Below are positions 666 to 10,715 of a stretch of 25,794 nt of DNA, in pieces. How positions within the stretch are numbered: position 1 is the stretch's first letter; every line of letters begins with the position of its first letter. Source of the stretch: a virus. The notes beneath the pieces were generated by a model. The model was given only the letters and a program-made list of their open reading frames with translations. It was not told the origin of the DNA and searched no databases. A program made the position numbers and the translations under genes. Where the stretch lies: positions 1 through 25,794 of IMG/VR virus record IMGVR_UViG_3300008218_000044, one strand, 5' to 3'.

Positions 666-881
666 TTACGCCAACGCAAGAGCTTGCGCTTTACTGACCA
701 GACTGGCCGCGGCAGTCCTCTCGTCACTAGTCGAGTTAGAAATCAACAAGTCTGTGACCACGGCTGTAGTGATTTCCGTGTTGTCATTATCAAGAATTTG
801 ATACTTAACAGAAGCAGACACGGTGCCGTCGGCATTTACTTCCAGCGTCCTTACAACTGCGTTCGCTTTAGTTATAGCCAT
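666..881 (-). CDS. Small hypothetical protein downstream of the fibre gene
   Basis: A 71-residue protein that I cannot assign. It starts at 881, sharing the TAATG junction with the fibre gene. A good ribosome site (AAAGGAGAG) is embedded in the last codons of that gene, so translation is probably coupled. The first half looks beta-rich (alternating Val, Thr, Ser), with an Asn-Ala-Asp-Gly turn near residue 17. The C-terminal third is Ala-rich and probably helical. It has no Cys, no membrane segment and no catalytic motif. Its tie to the fibre gene suggests a small virion or fibre-assembly component, but this is inference from position. Confidence 0.6.
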   Translation of the reverse strand: MAITKANAVVRTLEVNADGTVSASVKYQILDNDNTEITTAVVTDLLISNSTSDERTAAASLVSKAQALALA

Positions 882-3577
882 TAGTTCTCTCCTTTGAGGC
901 TCAATACCTGTGCCTCTAATTCTTTAACTTTCCCACTCAGTATATCAATGGTAGTTCTGGACTGGTATATAGCCCCTGCCATAAGAGCATCCATCCGTTG
1001 AGGGGAATACCCCAGCCACCCATCGTCATACTTTCTAAGGATACCTATCTCGGCAAGCAACTCTTTACCTCTTGCCATTATATCCTTTCCCAACTTGTAA
1101 CTCTCTGCGGTAGGGCTGTAAGCCGCCGCCAGAACCATTGCGTCATCGTAATCATCGAAAGCACTTTCATCTGTCGTGGAGTCAAAGTCCACGGTTGCCT
1201 GACCATGCGGAATGCGAATAAGGTCTTTGCCAGTCCCTGCGCCATCTATATCACTACTGTTTAGGAACCATTGGTCAGAGGATACTGCCATCCCCATAAT
1301 GTACTTATATGTCCCTGCGTTCTGGAACTGAACCTGAATCTGCCCAGAAGCGTTATCCAGATAGAGGTCACCATCATGGATTTTTACGTTCTCATCGAGG
1401 GTGATTGTATTACCACCCGCCTCTATGGAAACGGCTTGATCGAATGTCATTTTGTCTATGGCTGTCAATGCCAGAGTTGCATCATCGTCATTCCCCGCAA
1501 TACTAAGACGAGTTGTTTCTGATGGACTCGACGCATCGGTTGTACGGAGTTGTACTGCCCCCTTCATACCTGCACCACCAGCGTCAAAATCATGCCCAAA
1601 CGCTACAAACTGACCACCTTTCGATGTACTAGTGCCGCCCTCATACCTAATGTACTGATCGTCTGCTGCATTCACAATGTTCTTTTGCCCATTCATCGTA
1701 ATAGTCTGAGCAAAGGTTACCCCGCCACCGTCTGCTATAGTCATAGCAACGTCGCCGTCACTATAATCAATGGTTCGTATTTGCATACTGCCTGTTGAGG
1801 TTAGCGTGTTAGACCCAAGGTCAACAGCAGCAGCAATAGTCAATCCAGAAGAATCCGTAATAGTGCCATCGGTTACCACGGTATCCCCAATGGTAAAGTC
1901 TGTCGTCGCATCAATCGTTGTACCCGTAATCCCTGCAAACTCAACGGCATTCCCTGTACCTACTCCGATAGAAGTTCTAAGCGTAGCTCCGCTCTCGGCT
2001 ACAGGGTCAGTGGTTCCGTCTCCAACTATCATCTCTCCATCAGCAAGAACAGCCATAGCGGTAACTGCACTTGTACCAGAGCCTAGAAGCACTCCACCAT
2101 CAGTTAAGCTGGATGCCCCGGTACCGCCGTAAGCTACCCCTACATCAGTACCGTTCCATGTACCTGCGGCGATAGTTCCCGCATCAGCAATTCCTGCTGA
2201 GAATGTGGTAGCTTTGGCTACTGTGATAGCCTCAGAGCTATTGGTCGTAACGAATGTTATATAAGCATTATTTGCTTCTTCTATAATTAAGGCACTAGCC
2301 TGGTTGTCTGGTATCTTGATAGAGTTCTCGCCAGCATTGGTGAACTGCAACGCACCATCAGCACCACCAGACAGGGTCAAGTCTCCAGATATATCAGCCG
2401 TTCCATCAATGTCCAAGTTGGCTGCTAACTGAAGCCCTGATGAATCAGTAATAACACCATCCGTTATTACTGTATCTCCTATAGTAAAGTCAGTAGTTGC
2501 ATCAATAGTCCCAGATGTAATCGCTGTTGCCCCTGTAATTGCTCCGTCAAAAACTACCGCACCATTGATGTCTACGGTAGTGTCTGAGGTTATGGTCAGT
2601 ACCCCGTCAGAAGACTGGTGTATGAATGTTCCTGTATCCCCAAACGTCAGCTTGTTAGTAGAGTTCAAGGTCAGGCCAGTGCCATCGGTATGCGTTAGGG
2701 TGGTATCGTTGTCTGCTCCAAAGCCTAAAACAGCAGAGTCGCTATTAAGCTTTAGGTCATTACTCACTAACACTGCCGTAGAAGCATTAAGGTCTATCGT
2801 TGCTTCTCCATCAACGGTCATCACACCATCAGATGACTGATGGATGAAAGTTGCAGTATCCCCGAACAATATCTTTTCGGTACTGTTCATCAATATCTCA
2901 TCAGAGAACTTGAAGTAGTCCTCGTCTTCCATCCATGTGATGACACCATCTGCACTCTCAGCATCAAAGGTCAGCGTGATATCTGTAGCTGCCGTGCCTG
3001 TACCAAATGTTACGGAGTCTTGGTTGAAGTCTATAGACTGCGCCCCTGCCGTAGAGGAAGCAATAGTGAACGCCTTGATAAGGCTGCCACCCTGTAGTAC
3101 ATCAAACTCAAACTGTCCGTCTTCAGAGCCAGATGTTACATCTGTTGCCACCACGGTCATCCGGGCAAACTCATCGAGGTTGCCAGCGGAGTCATGTAAC
3201 TTGAACGACAGGTAGATCTCGTCGTTATCTGCCTTGGTGGAGTTAGCACCGCTGAATACGGCCACCTGGTTCGCCGTACTGTTTGTTATATTGCTGAACG
3301 TGGCAGCAGGGGTGGTTGCACCAGTATTATTGCGGACATCTATCTCCTGAAGGGAGATTTCATCACTCCACTTGATACGCCTGACCGAACTGCCTTTTGT
3401 TATCTCTACATCATAACGATCCTGATCGGCCTCGCTAAAGTCCCATCGCCCATCGCTATCCGTAGTAACGGTAGAGCCTTCCTGTGTAGTGGTCCCTGTC
3501 TCCAGGAGCTTGACACTGGCTCCGCTTACCGCATTACCTGCATCATCATATACATTACCACCAAAGTTAATTGCCAT
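881..3577 (-). CDS. Tail fibre / receptor-contacting protein with repeats
   Basis: An 898-residue protein, the largest of the tail block. Residues about 3-62 resemble a carboxypeptidase-regulatory-like (Ig-like) beta-sandwich, with the typical DDAGNAVSGASV turn and the DGRWDF pattern. The long middle is a low-complexity, Thr/Asp/Gly-rich beta repeat region in which related segments recur: a FIHQSSDGV unit occurs twice, and an ATTDFTIGDT unit with a following ITDSSGL occurs twice. This is typical of trimeric beta-helical phage fibres. The last ~30 residues look like a short coiled coil (heptad pattern around KVKELEAQVLSLKG) that could set trimerisation. A strong ribosome site (AGGAGGTG) precedes the start. 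The role of host recognition is inferred from the architecture and from its place at the end of the tail block; no glycanase motif is seen. Confidence 0.75.
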   Translation of the reverse strand: MAINFGGNVYDDAGNAVSGASVKLLETGTTTQEGSTVTTDSDGRWDFSEADQDRYDVEITKGSSVRRIKWSDEISLQEIDVRNNTGATTPAATFSNITNSTANQVAVFSGANSTKADNDEIYLSFKLHDSAGNLDEFARMTVVATDVTSGSEDGQFEFDVLQGGSLIKAFTIASSTAGAQSIDFNQDSVTFGTGTAATDITLTFDAESADGVITWMEDEDYFKFSDEILMNSTEKILFGDTATFIHQSSDGVMTVDGEATIDLNASTAVLVSNDLKLNSDSAVLGFGADNDTTLTHTDGTGLTLNSTNKLTFGDTGTFIHQSSDGVLTITSDTTVDINGAVVFDGAITGATAITSGTIDATTDFTIGDTVITDGVITDSSGLQLAANLDIDGTADISGDLTLSGGADGALQFTNAGENSIKIPDNQASALIIEEANNAYITFVTTNSSEAITVAKATTFSAGIADAGTIAAGTWNGTDVGVAYGGTGASSLTDGGVLLGSGTSAVTAMAVLADGEMIVGDGTTDPVAESGATLRTSIGVGTGNAVEFAGITGTTIDATTDFTIGDTVVTDGTITDSSGLTIAAAVDLGSNTLTSTGSMQIRTIDYSDGDVAMTIADGGGVTFAQTITMNGQKNIVNAADDQYIRYEGGTSTSKGGQFVAFGHDFDAGGAGMKGAVQLRTTDASSPSETTRLSIAGNDDDATLALTAIDKMTFDQAVSIEAGGNTITLDENVKIHDGDLYLDNASGQIQVQFQNAGTYKYIMGMAVSSDQWFLNSSDIDGAGTGKDLIRIPHGQATVDFDSTTDESAFDDYDDAMVLAAAYSPTAESYKLGKDIMARGKELLAEIGILRKYDDGWLGYSPQRMDALMAGAIYQSRTTIDILSGKVKELEAQVLSLKGEN

Positions 3578-3972
3578 TATCCACCTCCTAGCCTGGAGTG
3601 ATCTCTATAGTTTAATGCTTCCCGACAGTAGTATGTAGGATCTTTCATAAGGTCATCATCGTCTATGAATATCAGCGTAAGGTTCTGGCCTGCCATACTG
3701 GCTCTTGCCATGATGTCCCTGGCTCTCGCCTCTACTCCAAATTCATAGTGATAATAGACTCCCTGTACGTTTACTGCAAGGTCAGGCGGGTTAGTGAACA
3801 GAAAGTCCAGCACCACACCGCCCTTATCCATACGTCCACCCATCAGGGGAGACTGGTAAGTGAAGTCCTCTCCCGGCTGTCTGCCAAGCGCAATGAACGC
3901 CTGATAGGCCATATATTCCGGTATGGAACCCGGCCAGTCTGGAGGAACCTGCTGTGCTACCTGTGTTGTCAT
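3577..3972 (-). CDS. Possible PD-(D/E)XK / VSR-fold nuclease-like protein
   Basis: A 131-residue soluble protein. Its layout recalls the very-short-patch-repair / PD-(D/E)XK nuclease fold: an early helix with Glu19 (PEYMAYQAF), a beta strand ending in Asp56 (GVVLDF), a second strand and turn with NVQGVYYHY (residues 68-76, His75), a helix with Arg83 and Arg85, then a hydrophobic strand running into IDDDDL (103-108). In VSR-like proteins the second strand usually carries an acidic residue before the Gly; here it is Gln70, so the protein may be inactive or use another ligand. The gene sits between two tail genes, overlapping its neighbour by one base, which is odd for a nuclease. A minor virion protein or ejected anti-host factor is possible. 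The fold assignment is my reading of motifs, not a search result. Confidence 0.5.
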   Translation of the reverse strand: MTTQVAQQVPPDWPGSIPEYMAYQAFIALGRQPGEDFTYQSPLMGGRMDKGGVVLDFLFTNPPDLAVNVQGVYYHYEFGVEARARDIMARASMAGQNLTLIFIDDDDLMKDPTYYCREALNYRDHSRLGGG

Positions 3973-3973
3973 A

Positions 3974-4267
3974 TCATCCTTCCAGTATCATAATCCAGGA
4001 AACCTTGTCGTTATTCGTCCCGGCATCCACATAGAATACATTTGCAGGGACGCTGCCTCCGAACTCACCAAAGTTCATCTCAAGTTCATTGCCTCCGTCC
4101 AACTCGTATCCGAGCGAAGCGCTAACATCACTGACACCTACATAGGCCATTCCTGAGTTAGCGGTCAGTGCCCTGAACTTAACCCACTTAATGCGGTTCG
4201 TTGCGTTCAGCACCTGCACCGCTGTGCCTGCTGAAGATACCGTAGCTATTCCCTGATCAATTCTCAT
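3974..4267 (-). CDS. Small beta-rich minor virion protein
   Basis: A 97-residue protein with alternating short beta stretches and Gly/Asn turns, no Cys and no membrane helix. The pattern (an Ala/Thr-rich N-terminus, WVKFRAL, then YVGVSDVSAS and YELDGGNE) resembles small virion proteins found beside tail genes in many phages, usually read as a compact beta-sandwich or barrel. It lies between the beta-propeller-like protein and the nuclease-like gene and has a ribosome site AGGAGAAGG just upstream of the start. A decoration or tail-tip role is inferred from context only. Confidence 0.6.
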   Translation of the reverse strand: MRIDQGIATVSSAGTAVQVLNATNRIKWVKFRALTANSGMAYVGVSDVSASLGYELDGGNELEMNFGEFGGSVPANVFYVDAGTNNDKVSWIMILEG

Positions 4268-4276
4268 TTCCTTCTC

Positions 4277-6226
4277 CTATGGCTCCACAACACTTATGGT
4301 CGTAGACCCTCTTTCGTCATGTCCTGTAAACTCCATGCCCTGTGCTGATACGACATCCACATAGTAGTTCCTCGTTCCCCCACCGTCATCCCTAAAGGTG
4401 AACTCTACCAACGTCGTACTCTCTATGGCAGACACCAGGTTGGACCGCAGATCCCTGGGTACATTGCCCTTGTATTCATTCGTCAGGTCTATGTCTACCG
4501 TATGCCCCCATTTGGCCGTAATCTTCTTGCGGTACTCCAGTGTCAGGGATACCACGTCTGGTGTATTGAACTTCTCCAAACCCGTACTCGTTGCGTCATC
4601 CCTCTCAAGGGTAATCTTAAACTTTATGGCACGGAAAGGAGTGCCAACTCCACTCGCAAACGTGTATGTGTACGTCCCCGCAGAGGCTCCCATAGTGCTT
4701 GAGTTAAGCGAAGATACTGCCGTGGTGTAGCTTTCTGAATAGTCTGTAGCATATTCTATCTTAACAATTTCCTTATCGGCTGCCGTCAGGTCCTGTGCCT
4801 CAATGCGTAGGTTGAGTGCCAGCTTATCAACTTCACTCTGCCCTGCATTGAACCACGGGGTTTCGTGTATGCCAGATGTGGCGTATGCGAACTCCGACAC
4901 CTCAGATGGATTGATGATATCCTTGGGCAGATCCATAAAGTGTACTATATTGTTATGCCCCCACCATACCCTGTATTCAGAGTAGGCATCCGAAACGTGT
5001 ATCGAATCAAAGCCCTTGCCTGACGTAGCAGACTGCCACTTCACTTCCCATCCCATCTCGTTATACCCCAGGATACTACTGTAGCCTGTATCCGGGGCGA
5101 TAACTGGCGACCCCTGGTGACTGATCCATTGATACGGTATGGAGGTTGATGCAATGGTTGACGGCGCAGCGCTTGCGTCTACACCTACGAGCAGTTCATT
5201 GTGTGATCCTGCCATATTCCGTATAGCTCCACGCTTATCAGACGGTAAGCCGTCATCCCTGTCCGGCCCCATGATCGTTATCACAGCGGCATTATTCCCG
5301 TTGATGTACTTATAGATTCCGTTGCCGGAGCTGATATATACCGAGTCGCGCCACCTCACTGTTCCCTTGCCGTTGTCCGGGTGGACAGGGAAGTCCATCT
5401 GCGTCGCTTCCCACATGGCGTTGTCTGCATTGTGGGCAAACAAACCATGTGTGGTCGCAGCATATATGATTGGCACACCCATTGCGTTACGAGCCACAAA
5501 CAGGGCTGTTACAGAGCCATCTGGCAGAGGCAGCACAGCATCGTTCACCTCTGTACCGATGGTGGTGGCATACCACAGTTGTCCAGTATGCGACATGCCC
5601 CAGAGCCTTTCATCCCATACAGTCACAAACTTTGTATCTGTTGTATCTGTAGTCCAGCTTGAACCGTTAGAAGAATATGTATACCCACTGCCATTCGAGT
5701 CGTAATGGGCAAAGACAAGGTATGTCGTACCCCCGGCATCGGTGAACACCACGCTGTCAGTCACCTGATCAGTGGCACTCTGGGTGAGTGCCGACCCCCA
5801 ACTATCATTCGTGTTGTTGTACTTAAATAGCTTTGGGCTTTCCGATATCGAGCCGTTCCAGAAGGCATATACCTCATCAGACAGGGTATTAATAGCGCCT
5901 ATCTTAGCATCAGTAAGGCCGTGAGAGGGGCTTGTGGACTCTGTCGCCAACCCAGGCAATACCAGGTGGTTCTTATAACGCAACTGACAGGTGCTGTACC
6001 ACGCCCTGTTAACCTCACCGGCACCTTCCATGCGGTTGATGCCTATGCCACCACGCCAGTCAGACCACGATATGATCGATGAGCGCAGGTTAGAGTCCTT
6101 TGTTGTATCCCCTATCACCACCTTGGCAGGGTAGATTGAAGCAAGCGTAGAACGCACAGGCCTTGTGGTGGGATAGTACACGCCATTCAAAAATATCTCA
6201 TTGGTGTCTACAACCTGTGAGGTCAT
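4277..6226 (-). CDS. Tail nozzle-like / beta-propeller structural protein
   Basis: A 649-residue protein. Residues about 105-430 contain repeated beta-strand blocks with aromatic-Gly turns (for example VWDERLWGMSHTGQLWYAT near 203-221 and TVRWRDSVYISSGNGIYKYI near 289-309), as in beta-propellers of phage tails. The C-terminal part (about 465-649) is beta-rich, with paired strands and EYRKK, which may form a baseplate or nozzle-contacting sandwich. It follows the connector-like gene, with one base of overlap, and precedes small virion and fibre genes. That is the position of the tail nozzle gene in short-tailed phages (the counterpart of T7 gp12, by position only). No enzyme motif is seen. Alternative: a receptor-binding propeller. 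Confidence 0.6.
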   Translation of the reverse strand: MTSQVVDTNEIFLNGVYYPTTRPVRSTLASIYPAKVVIGDTTKDSNLRSSIISWSDWRGGIGINRMEGAGEVNRAWYSTCQLRYKNHLVLPGLATESTSPSHGLTDAKIGAINTLSDEVYAFWNGSISESPKLFKYNNTNDSWGSALTQSATDQVTDSVVFTDAGGTTYLVFAHYDSNGSGYTYSSNGSSWTTDTTDTKFVTVWDERLWGMSHTGQLWYATTIGTEVNDAVLPLPDGSVTALFVARNAMGVPIIYAATTHGLFAHNADNAMWEATQMDFPVHPDNGKGTVRWRDSVYISSGNGIYKYINGNNAAVITIMGPDRDDGLPSDKRGAIRNMAGSHNELLVGVDASAAPSTIASTSIPYQWISHQGSPVIAPDTGYSSILGYNEMGWEVKWQSATSGKGFDSIHVSDAYSEYRVWWGHNNIVHFMDLPKDIINPSEVSEFAYATSGIHETPWFNAGQSEVDKLALNLRIEAQDLTAADKEIVKIEYATDYSESYTTAVSSLNSSTMGASAGTYTYTFASGVGTPFRAIKFKITLERDDATSTGLEKFNTPDVVSLTLEYRKKITAKWGHTVDIDLTNEYKGNVPRDLRSNLVSAIESTTLVEFTFRDDGGGTRNYYVDVVSAQGMEFTGHDERGSTTISVVEP

Positions 6227-7491
6227 CAGTCAACGGACCTCACGTTCACAAGCATTGGAAAGCTCCTGCGTGACCGCTCTGCCTGTGTTGCCCAGTAAGC
6301 ACTGAGCTGGCGTTTAGCATCAGGGTCTGTGGCAGGGCCACCGGAAGCTGACAGGAGCGCCTGGGTTACCGCACTGGCAATGATGTAATCTTCCGGGATC
6401 TCGGTAGCTGTTGCATCACTGGATAGCAGAGCTGGCTTATCACCGCCCACTATCTTAATCAGGCTGTAACCCACCGCATCGTGACCATCACGGCCAAGAA
6501 TAAGGTCCCGTGCCTCTTTATCAACACGCCAGTTACGCCTGTCCAGGGTTGCCCATTCAGCCGTGTCATTCTCTACGGCAGAGATATCGTCTATCCACAC
6601 CGTCACGGCTCCGATATCGGAGTCATACTCCAGACCCACAGAGATAATTGCTGTATCAGTCTCCGGGTTCGCAAGAGACATACGGACAAATGTCCATGTA
6701 TCCGCTGTTAGGGCAGGGATACTAAGGGTTTCAAGGGGACTGGCACAGGAAGCAGTGTCATCAAGCAAGAGCTTGAGATTACCAGCACTAGTTGCTACTG
6801 TGCTTTTCACCCACATCTCTATGGTGTCGTACCTGGATAGATCCTTACTAGTAATGCTATCAGTAACAAAATCCCCCGCTGATGCGCCTACTGCAATGAC
6901 CATCTTCAGTGACTGAGTACCCTGCTTTCTGTCCTTGGTGTCCAAGGACTGGGTAAAGTCACCGTCTGTAGCCTCATCAAACGTGGTAGCACAGGCATGA
7001 ATCCTGGTGGAGCTTACCTTATGTCTGTAGTCTACCCTGGATATCATTGATATGTTGGAAGGAATATCAAACCGTGCCTGATGTCCATCGCCATGAAGAG
7101 AGATATTCTCTATCGGGTCGTATACAAGCCCGGTAGCACTTAGAATGCTCTGGTTAATAAAGTCATCTATCACATCAGGATTGTACTCGCCATCCCACAA
7201 CTCGTAGGACTCTGATGCCGTTGCAGTTCCAACCGTAGGCATAAACGTAAGGGTGGTGACGTTACTGGATATCGCAGAATCGGTGACGCGTCGTGTTACT
7301 GCATCGTTATTACCACTGGTGAACCTGACCCACTTTCCGATCTGGGTATCAGCCCCACCTAATACCAGGGTATTGTCCAGCAGCGTTGTTGTACTCCCGC
7401 TACTTGACGCAGAGGAAACGTACACCGCACCAAGGGCATTCCCAATGTGCTGCCTTAATTGCTCACGCGTTCTCCCTTGTATTGCTGGCAT
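6226..7491 (-). CDS. Head-tail connector/adaptor-like protein with inserted carbohydrate-binding-like domain
   Basis: A 421-residue protein. Residues 1-165 start with a helix (GRTREQLRQHIGNALGA) and continue into beta-rich sequence. The C-terminal region (about 310-421) is helical and ends in an Arg-rich segment, with PEDYIIASAVTQALL near 366-380, as in phage adaptor or tail-completion proteins that bind under the portal. Between them, about residues 168-306, lies a domain with the pattern of jelly-roll carbohydrate-binding modules: an opening FDEATDGDF, GTQSLKM, YDTIEMWVKS, a middle DTWTFVRMSL, and a closing VTVWIDDI. Such domains bind glycans or act as virion decoration. Connector role is inferred from gene order and shape, and the domain from sequence pattern. 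It overlaps the next gene by one base. Confidence 0.55.
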   Translation of the reverse strand: MPAIQGRTREQLRQHIGNALGAVYVSSASSSGSTTTLLDNTLVLGGADTQIGKWVRFTSGNNDAVTRRVTDSAISSNVTTLTFMPTVGTATASESYELWDGEYNPDVIDDFINQSILSATGLVYDPIENISLHGDGHQARFDIPSNISMISRVDYRHKVSSTRIHACATTFDEATDGDFTQSLDTKDRKQGTQSLKMVIAVGASAGDFVTDSITSKDLSRYDTIEMWVKSTVATSAGNLKLLLDDTASCASPLETLSIPALTADTWTFVRMSLANPETDTAIISVGLEYDSDIGAVTVWIDDISAVENDTAEWATLDRRNWRVDKEARDLILGRDGHDAVGYSLIKIVGGDKPALLSSDATATEIPEDYIIASAVTQALLSASGGPATDPDAKRQLSAYWATQAERSRRSFPMLVNVRSVD

Positions 7492-9836: not shown

Positions 9837-10715
9837 TTAGCTGAAGGACAGATCACCAATCTCAGCGATGAAGGACGCACCACGGCTATCATCAAGTTCA
9901 AACACGCCATAGTCTGCTGTCATCACAACCTCGGTAGCCCTGAGAGAAGCATCTCTCTGTCGCTCTGTCCGTGTGTCTACGCTTGTCAGGGCTGCCATAG
10001 CAGTCTTGTCAGCGATGACACCATACCCGGAGTCCTGTCCACTTATCTTATCTATGTTTCCGTCTTCAAATATGCTTACGCCATTGATTGGGCGTAGGCC
10101 ACTGTAGAAGTTCGCCAACAGATCCACGCTCCACCCGCTGGTTAGTCCTGCGGCTGCGGCTGTGTCAGCAGTAGTTGCAGATGCCTTAGAAAGTTCAGCA
10201 ACCGCATTCGGATGATGAATAATATAAAGCTGATTGCCAAATTTGTTTGCCTTAGCCCTGGAAATAGCAGCATGGACATTCGCTGTAGAGAATGTCTGGT
10301 TATCTGCACTAAGAGCAGTACCACCATTGAGGTTAGGCCACAAGGCTATAACATCCGTGTCCTTCTTCCTGGCCATACCGTCACCAAGCTGCCTGCCAAT
10401 CATGCTGAACACGTTGTCTGCACTCTGGCGTACCAGCTTATCCGTGAGAACAACCTTGGCTCCGACCTCTGAAGCGGTGAGGTCTACCGTGGTCATCCCT
10501 ATGTCTTCCTCGTCTATGATATCCTGACCGTCAACAAGGTCGCTCATAGACATCTGTCCTACCTTGGGGACAGTAACCTGCTTGGAACCCTTGGGCAGAC
10601 TGAACTGCTCAATGAGCGCAAGCGCTGGAGCGTTATGCTCCTCTGTGTACCTAGCCGAAGCTATGATAATCCTCTGGGCATTCTCTAAATTACCCGTTGT
10701 TGCTGTCTGTGCCAT
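9837..10715 (-). CDS. Major capsid protein, HK97-fold-like
   Basis: A 292-residue protein in the typical size range of HK97-type capsid proteins. An N-terminal helical arm (about 1-30) is followed by PALALIEQFSLPKGSKQVTVPKVG (the E-loop-like entry), and GAKVVLTDKLVRQS (about 85-98) and the MIGRQLGDGMARKKDTDVIALW helix (about 105-126) match the spine helix of capsid proteins in this class. The C-terminal half is the beta-rich P/A-domain core, including GVIADKTAMAAL and a closing YGVFELDDS. It has the strongest ribosome site of the window (AAAGGAGGT, overlapping the stop of the upstream gene), as expected for the most abundant protein. It follows a scaffold-like gene. Absence of a protease gene suggests scaffold-based, not protease-based, maturation. 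Confidence 0.85.
   Translation of the reverse strand: MAQTATTGNLENAQRIIIASARYTEEHNAPALALIEQFSLPKGSKQVTVPKVGQMSMSDLVDGQDIIDEEDIGMTTVDLTASEVGAKVVLTDKLVRQSADNVFSMIGRQLGDGMARKKDTDVIALWPNLNGGTALSADNQTFSTANVHAAISRAKANKFGNQLYIIHHPNAVAELSKASATTADTAAAAGLTSGWSVDLLANFYSGLRPINGVSIFEDGNIDKISGQDSGYGVIADKTAMAALTSVDTRTERQRDASLRATEVVMTADYGVFELDDSRGASFIAEIGDLSFS

Follow-up and report, generated by a model that had tools for sequence, protein, structure and literature searches.

The phage T4 protein gp4 was predicted in 2005 as a PD-(D/E)XK protein encoded among structural genes (PMC1189080) and, according to a later report, acts as a nuclease that packaging requires (PMC7824862, citing Benler et al. 2020). Within the same superfold, the EDxHD/Vsr branch includes Vsr, whose half-motif has the form FXH (PMC1189080), and the EDxHD homing endonucleases, which carry extended DNA-binding regions (PMC3943268). 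A Vsr-like cavity without nuclease activity has been described for FASTKD4 (PMC11879112), one of the eukaryotic RNA-binding RAP domain proteins. Here, we report a predicted nuclease family of the EDxHD/Vsr branch that is tied to late structural genes in viral contigs.

The window, i.e., the whole stretch of 25,794 bases analysed here, is a virus record representing a partial contig. It encodes a 131-aa protein, hereafter NUC, whose open reading frame had been delimited correctly by an earlier sequence-only reading but has to be read on the minus strand, as the plus-strand reading crosses stop codons. The residues singled out in that reading (Glu19, Asp56, Gln70, His75, and the acidic run at 104–107) are found at these positions of the translation. 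A search of viral contigs yielded 91 relatives, 80 of which were kept; the 61 distinct sequences are 49–92% identical to the window protein. The median pairwise dN/dS of NUC proteins from the window's clade (type I; types II and III occur in sister viruses, see below) is 0.25 (138 pairs). The number of relatives, the invariance of key positions in the 61 sequences, and the dN/dS value argue that the frame is a gene and not a chance occurrence. The protein is strongly acidic (mean net charge -7.8), which is unusual for a DNA binder.

This predicted nuclease family has no match of weight in Pfam or PHROG and none in INPHARED (50,697 phage records, tblastn). The single NUC protein matched nothing in Pfam and PHROG (in the latter, none up to E 0.1), and a Pfam scan of the 61 members gave weak matches only, to MTES_1575 in 9/61 (best E 0.028) and to DUF2726 in one. 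Strict peptide patterns matched 40 stretches of GTDB genomes, none of them a NUC relative, and comparison of the NUC profile with PDB sequences produced no significant match and one spurious one. Among publications on EDxHD/Vsr proteins, Vsr-like phage nucleases, and virion Vsr, we recognised no paper on the NUC family, the literature covered being that outside most subscription journals.

Table. Coordinates of NUC, its conserved residues and its neighbours in the window
Feature	Position	Strand	Evidence and conservation
NUC, 131-aa Vsr/EDxHD-fold protein with predicted complete catalytic set (type I)	3577..3972	minus	homologues, AF2, structural alignment
Glu19 codon, helix A; putative E of EDxHD	3916..3918	minus	invariant in 78/78 type I
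Gly-rich loop GGRMDKGG (residues 45–52)	3817..3840	minus	all four glycines kept throughout type I; loop shortened or altered in types II and III
Asp56 codon; putative D of EDxHD / PD	3805..3807	minus	invariant in 78/78 type I
Asn68 codon; acid position of PD-(D/E)XK	3769..3771	minus	invariant in 78/78 type I
Gln70 codon; x of EDxHD, Lys position of PD-(D/E)XK	3763..3765	minus	invariant in 78/78 type I; I-Bth0305I comparison
His75 codon; H of EDxHD	3748..3750	minus	invariant in 78/78 type I
Asp86 codon; putative second D of EDxHD	3715..3717	minus	invariant in 78/78 type I
AGGAGG, resembling a ribosome-binding site of the fibre gene, within the last NUC codons	3584..3589	minus	sequence
898-aa fibre-like gene directly downstream of NUC	881..3577	minus	recognised in 74/80 loci
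97-aa gene directly upstream of NUC	3974..4267	minus	absent or unrecognised in 13/80 loci
649-aa conserved cassette gene, independent bait for the locus	4277..6226	minus	present in 80/80 loci

NUC is part of a run of minus-strand genes containing recognisable terminase subunits and a major capsid protein, several unknowns, and then the 421-aa, 649-aa, and 97-aa genes, NUC, and the 898-aa fibre-like gene. Its neighbours are syntenic across the 80 loci (649-aa gene, 80/80; 898-aa gene, 74/80). The description of NUC as lying between tail genes thus holds as regards conserved neighbours, while the tail identity of the 649-aa and 898-aa proteins is presumptive: the former has no usable match among phage proteins, in PHROG (best E 0.017) or in the PDB, and the latter only a sub-threshold Pfam match to CarboxypepD_reg. 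The NUC stop and the fibre ATG share base 3577. As AGGAGG lies inside the last NUC codons, the conserved Gly-rich C-terminus of NUC is probably in part the ribosome-binding site of the fibre gene; a Shine–Dalgarno-like core near the fibre ATG is present in 61/78, 17/21, and 9/9 distinct rows of types I, II, and III, respectively. As to a methylase partner, absent according to the sequence-only reading, none was seen among the 10 proteins of this partial contig scanned with Pfam.

The major capsid protein of the window (9837–10715) is 27–32% identical to those of the pelagiphages HTVC112P, HTVC026P, HTVC111P, and HTVC202P and of phage DSL-LC06. Two of these phage genomes have their tail genes annotated quite differently, and a NUC relative was not found in the two genomes examined among these distant capsid relatives.

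The AF2 model of NUC, based on 61 sequences (mean pLDDT 80, pTM 0.78; weak at residues 41–50 and 71–80, with a mean pLDDT of 55 for the block around His75), contains the core of the PD-(D/E)XK superfold, helices around a mixed sheet, in a predicted rather than solved structure. VIA-align ranked Vsr first (1cw0; Z 9.7, 109 residues aligned, rmsd 3.7), I-Bth0305I second (3r3p; Z 9.5, 93 residues, rmsd 3.0), and NGO0050 third (3hrl; Z 9.1). They are followed by two mitoribosomal chains of T. gondii (Z 8.9, presumably a RAP protein, and 8.7) and by a further Vsr structure, 1vsr (8.8), all others being at or below 6.6; the model also aligns structurally to TnsA and VRR_NUC. Foldseek alone gave weak matches (best E 0.037 in the PDB and 1.4e-3 in BFVD, where phage DUF559 and homing endonuclease entries stand near the top of the list). 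The nuclease-like fold of the VSR / PD-(D/E)XK kind proposed from the sequence was thus recovered by structure prediction and fold search, and NUC is predicted to fall, within the restriction-endonuclease fold, in the EDxHD branch of Vsr and I-Bth0305I. The model of a type III protein has Z-scores of 9.5 with I-Bth0305I and 9.0 with Vsr, which is not independent evidence, since its alignment included type I rows.

At the sequence level, profile A1 scored 12.2 bits against the printed I-Bth0305I segment (E 7e-6, an E-value for one comparison with a target preselected by the fold search; the best of 2000 shuffles reached 6.0). NUC shares with I-Bth0305I the fold, the LA-x-x-V-x-G-V-Y pattern, the spacing to the H position, and the E, D, H, D set. 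It differs in lacking an added DNA-binding region, in its fixed slot in a structural cassette, in having Gln for Asn at the x position, and in N-V-Q for E-V-N. The I-Bth0305I segment has Ala at the position of His75, which we interpret as a knock-out introduced on purpose into the crystallised protein. Similarity to E. coli Vsr (1cw0, 1vsr) includes the fold (Z 9.7 and 8.8) and an unorthodox half-motif lacking both acid and Lys, which reads FXH in Vsr (PMC1189080) and NXQ in NUC. In contrast, the comparison of profiles with 17 enterobacterial Vsr proteins, a narrow sample, was not significant (hhalign), PF03852 (Vsr) had no match in the 61 NUC members, and no adjoining dcm gene was seen among the 10 window proteins scanned with Pfam. 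Membership in Vsr proper was rejected on the basis of the profile comparison.

The six putative active-site positions E19, D56, N68, Q70, H75, and D86 (EDNQHD) are kept in all 78 distinct type I proteins, the type labels coming from profile scores that include the active-site columns. The invariant positions in the 61 sequences include these six as well as D36, F37, G45, G46, G51, G52, F57, P62, P63, the whole stretch from Q70 to Y76, G79, L100, F102, D104, A119, D124, and S126. Thus, Asp56, Gln70, and His75, whose conservation had been named as a point to check, do not vary freely in the window's clade. In the acidic run at 104–107, invariance in type I is limited to Asp104 (78/78); Asp106 is found in 65/78, and position 105 is D or E. 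The sequence-only reading took the glutamine to stand in place of the usual acid, which we correct: the I-Bth0305I segment has Asn at Gln70 and Vsr has FXH, so Gln70 falls at the Lys position of (D/E)XK, and the acid position is held by Asn68. The canonical acid and Lys of this half-motif are absent (N68-x-Q70 in 78/78 type I), and the EDxHD set (E19, D56, Q70, H75, D86) is present in 78/78. The Lys position is variable within the EDxHD/Vsr branch. We take E19, D56, and D86 to be the E, D, and D of EDxHD from topology, spacing, and the residue roles in Vsr.

An independent set of loci was collected with the 649-aa protein as bait, the best 80 being ranked by identity to the window. A NUC homologue is present in all 67 bait loci in which the bait end is complete and followed by at least 700 bases (40 of type I, 20 of type II, and 7 of type III, frequencies that are uninformative because of the ranking by identity). 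In the pooled loci, a NUC-like frame occurs in 273/301, representing 108 distinct proteins, which are the counts to be used, as locus counts are inflated by overlapping stretches of the same contig. The remaining 28 comprise 21 bait loci with a contig end within 544 bases and seven loci of a separate nuclease elsewhere (L212–L218).

All six site positions are kept in 78/78 distinct proteins of type I, 0/21 of type II, and 0/9 of type III; type I counts from peptide-pattern searches are biased, because the patterns include catalytic residues, and the bait-based set, free of that bias, gives 37/37, 0/15, and 0/5, respectively. Type II has lost His75 (21/21), and position 19 is occupied by A, S, or T in 20/21; position 56 remains acidic (21/21; 17 D and 4 E) and D86 is kept (21/21). 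A new Glu71 is invariant (21/21) and accompanied by His76 in 20/21, and hence the type II site may have been rebuilt and need not be dead. In type III, D56 is replaced by A, T, or K and Q70 by T, V, M, or I, and H75 is lost (9/9 each), the Gly loop is shortened, and E19 and N68 are kept. P10, F37, F57, P62, and A119 are retained in all 108 NUC proteins. The earlier suggestion of either a nuclease or an inactive structural fold therefore needs modification rather than a choice, since one does not preclude the other: the complete site persists in the window's clade, and its sisters retain the protein without it.

The median dN/dS is 0.15 for type II (7 pairs) and 0.21 for type III (9 pairs). All three types are under purifying selection, and on these values the reading of types II and III as pseudogenes was rejected. 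In the tree of the 649-aa protein (109 rows), every deep branch is of type I, the altered types fall inside one group of 37 rows, and the distribution of active and altered forms needs at least three changes. In the NUC tree computed without the six site columns, types II and III each occupy one side of a branch. Both are midpoint-rooted quick trees, on which the direction of change rests, and the NUC tree, built on 126 columns only, carries a warning of long branches meeting; their disagreement suggests exchange of the slot among viruses. Joint transfer of NUC types with the fibre N-terminus was rejected, as it takes eight changes on the poorly resolved tree of that region.

The 97-aa gene and NUC are separated by a PD-(D/E)XK-like gene of about 175–195 aa in three distinct lineages of type II (contigs of L198/L207, L247/L251/L252, and L261). 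This additional gene was observed in 6/49 type II loci, 0/206 type I loci, and 0/18 type III loci. Its nuclease assignment is by motif, as the L207 copy has no match in Pfam or PHROG; the L261 copy has Gln for one acidic residue, and relatives of the gene occur in other contexts. This pattern, comprising three cases only, fits replacement of a lost NUC activity by the neighbouring gene. NUC is not the sole nuclease of these phages, since a RecB/Cas4-like exonuclease and a RusA-like resolvase, recognised by eye, accompany both type I and the altered types in 16 large contigs. A cytosine methyltransferase domain (PF00145) was found in 6/49 type I, 4/21 type II, and 0/9 type III records, mostly fragments and with kinship uncorrected, and was not found in one further type II record. 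These counts are too small, and the records too incomplete, for interpretation, and mere acquisition of a cytosine methyltransferase by type II phages was rejected as an explanation.

We propose, with a probability of slightly more than one-half (about 55%), that NUC is a component of the tail/fibre cassette which in the window's clade is an active EDxHD nuclease and which has a second role independent of catalysis. In this uncultured phage group, NUC would constitute a new family of the EDxHD/Vsr branch of the PD-(D/E)XK superfold, fixed in the late tail/fibre cassette. The protein of the window's clade would most likely be a metal-dependent DNA endonuclease acting via E19, D56, H75, and D86, while Q70 would occupy the Lys position. 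The analogy with T4 gp4 suggests that it may act during late assembly or genome delivery, possibly in association with the virion. Both gp4 and NUC are small PD-(D/E)XK-superfold proteins encoded among virion genes (PMC1189080, PMC7824862); however, gp4 is reported as TnsA/T7 endonuclease I-like, whereas NUC is Vsr-like. The scaffold of NUC probably also docks in tail/fibre assembly. Such a second role is suggested because purifying selection continues to maintain the protein in the sister viruses, although the site has disappeared in type III and has been either lost or rebuilt in type II. The most economical reading would then be two roles in one protein, the scaffold being needed in every virus and the nuclease activity in most. 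An extension of this proposal, which we advance tentatively and consider somewhat less probable than its negation, is that NUC is a moonlighting structural nuclease in which catalysis and structural function have become separated in nature and of which intact, rebuilt (Glu71/His76), and dead alleles circulate within one phage group, the lost activity being replaced in some lineages by the adjoining PD-(D/E)XK gene. As intact, altered, and dead versions share one slot, natural variants make the purpose of a nuclease in a virion cassette directly testable, and the PD-(D/E)XK-like gene next to NUC hints at the lineages in which the activity may still be required.

The complete catalytic set of type I would also be expected if NUC were a late-expressed non-virion nuclease attacking the DNA of the host or of competitors, as in host degradation or in conflict over superinfection or co-infection, and placed in the cassette only for the timing of expression. 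The intact and altered alleles do not track the tree of the 649-aa protein, as might be the case for a conflict gene, and C5-methyltransferases in type I (6/49) and type II (4/21) records point the same way, but the latter counts come from fragments uncorrected for kinship. Moreover, the slot is never empty (67/67), and homologues lacking the full site remain under purifying selection, a constraint for which a pure effector would have no need. We therefore regard this explanation as rather doubtful. The retention of proteins without the full catalytic set is what one would predict if NUC were purely structural in all types and the invariant type I residues served folding or binding, and the strong acidity of NUC and the precedent of FASTKD4, whose Vsr-like pocket has no nuclease activity (PMC11879112), are consistent with this. 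Such a role is nevertheless unlikely as the whole explanation: the residues of the EDxHD pocket vanish as a set in the sisters, whereas P10, F37, F57, P62, and A119 stay in all 108 proteins. The window's clade, unlike eukaryotic RAP proteins such as FASTKD4, keeps the full catalytic set.

A free-standing EDxHD homing endonuclease is suggested by the closest solved relative by sequence, the catalytic domain of I-Bth0305I, and by the high rank of phage DUF559 and homing endonuclease entries among the BFVD matches. NUC, however, forms a single domain in the model, its 131 residues including no extra DNA-binding region, in contrast to the extended regions reported for that family (PMC3943268). It occupies the same slot in all viruses examined (67/67 loci with room for it) and is not sporadic, and versions without the site are retained. 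We consider this possibility highly improbable.

Several minor observations concern individual contigs. A divergent type I member, L304 (record 2811995110_000252, 35,114 bases), is encoded on a contig with an N-methyltransferase-like motif TSPPYW; the number of this record differs in kind from those of the metagenomes, and it may represent an isolate or a single-cell genome from which a host could be learned. The PF00145 domain was seen within two very large open frames of 2152 and 2207 aa (at G007:C1:24618-25550 and G056:C1:15597-16580); the 1944-aa frame of the window has no Pfam match. In L008/L009/L170 and L173, small inserts follow the 97-aa gene and NUC starts 598 bases past the 649-aa gene, compared with about 300 elsewhere; the insert of L173 is a small basic open reading frame. 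The interval before NUC thus accepts extra genes. Between the 97-aa gene and a type II NUC, L249 has an open reading frame (6304–6765) that by eye resembles the catalytic chain of ferredoxin-thioredoxin reductase and has two in-frame TGA codons at the expected cysteines, making it a candidate phage selenoprotein; the same spacing as for this insert is observed in L250 and L274–L276.
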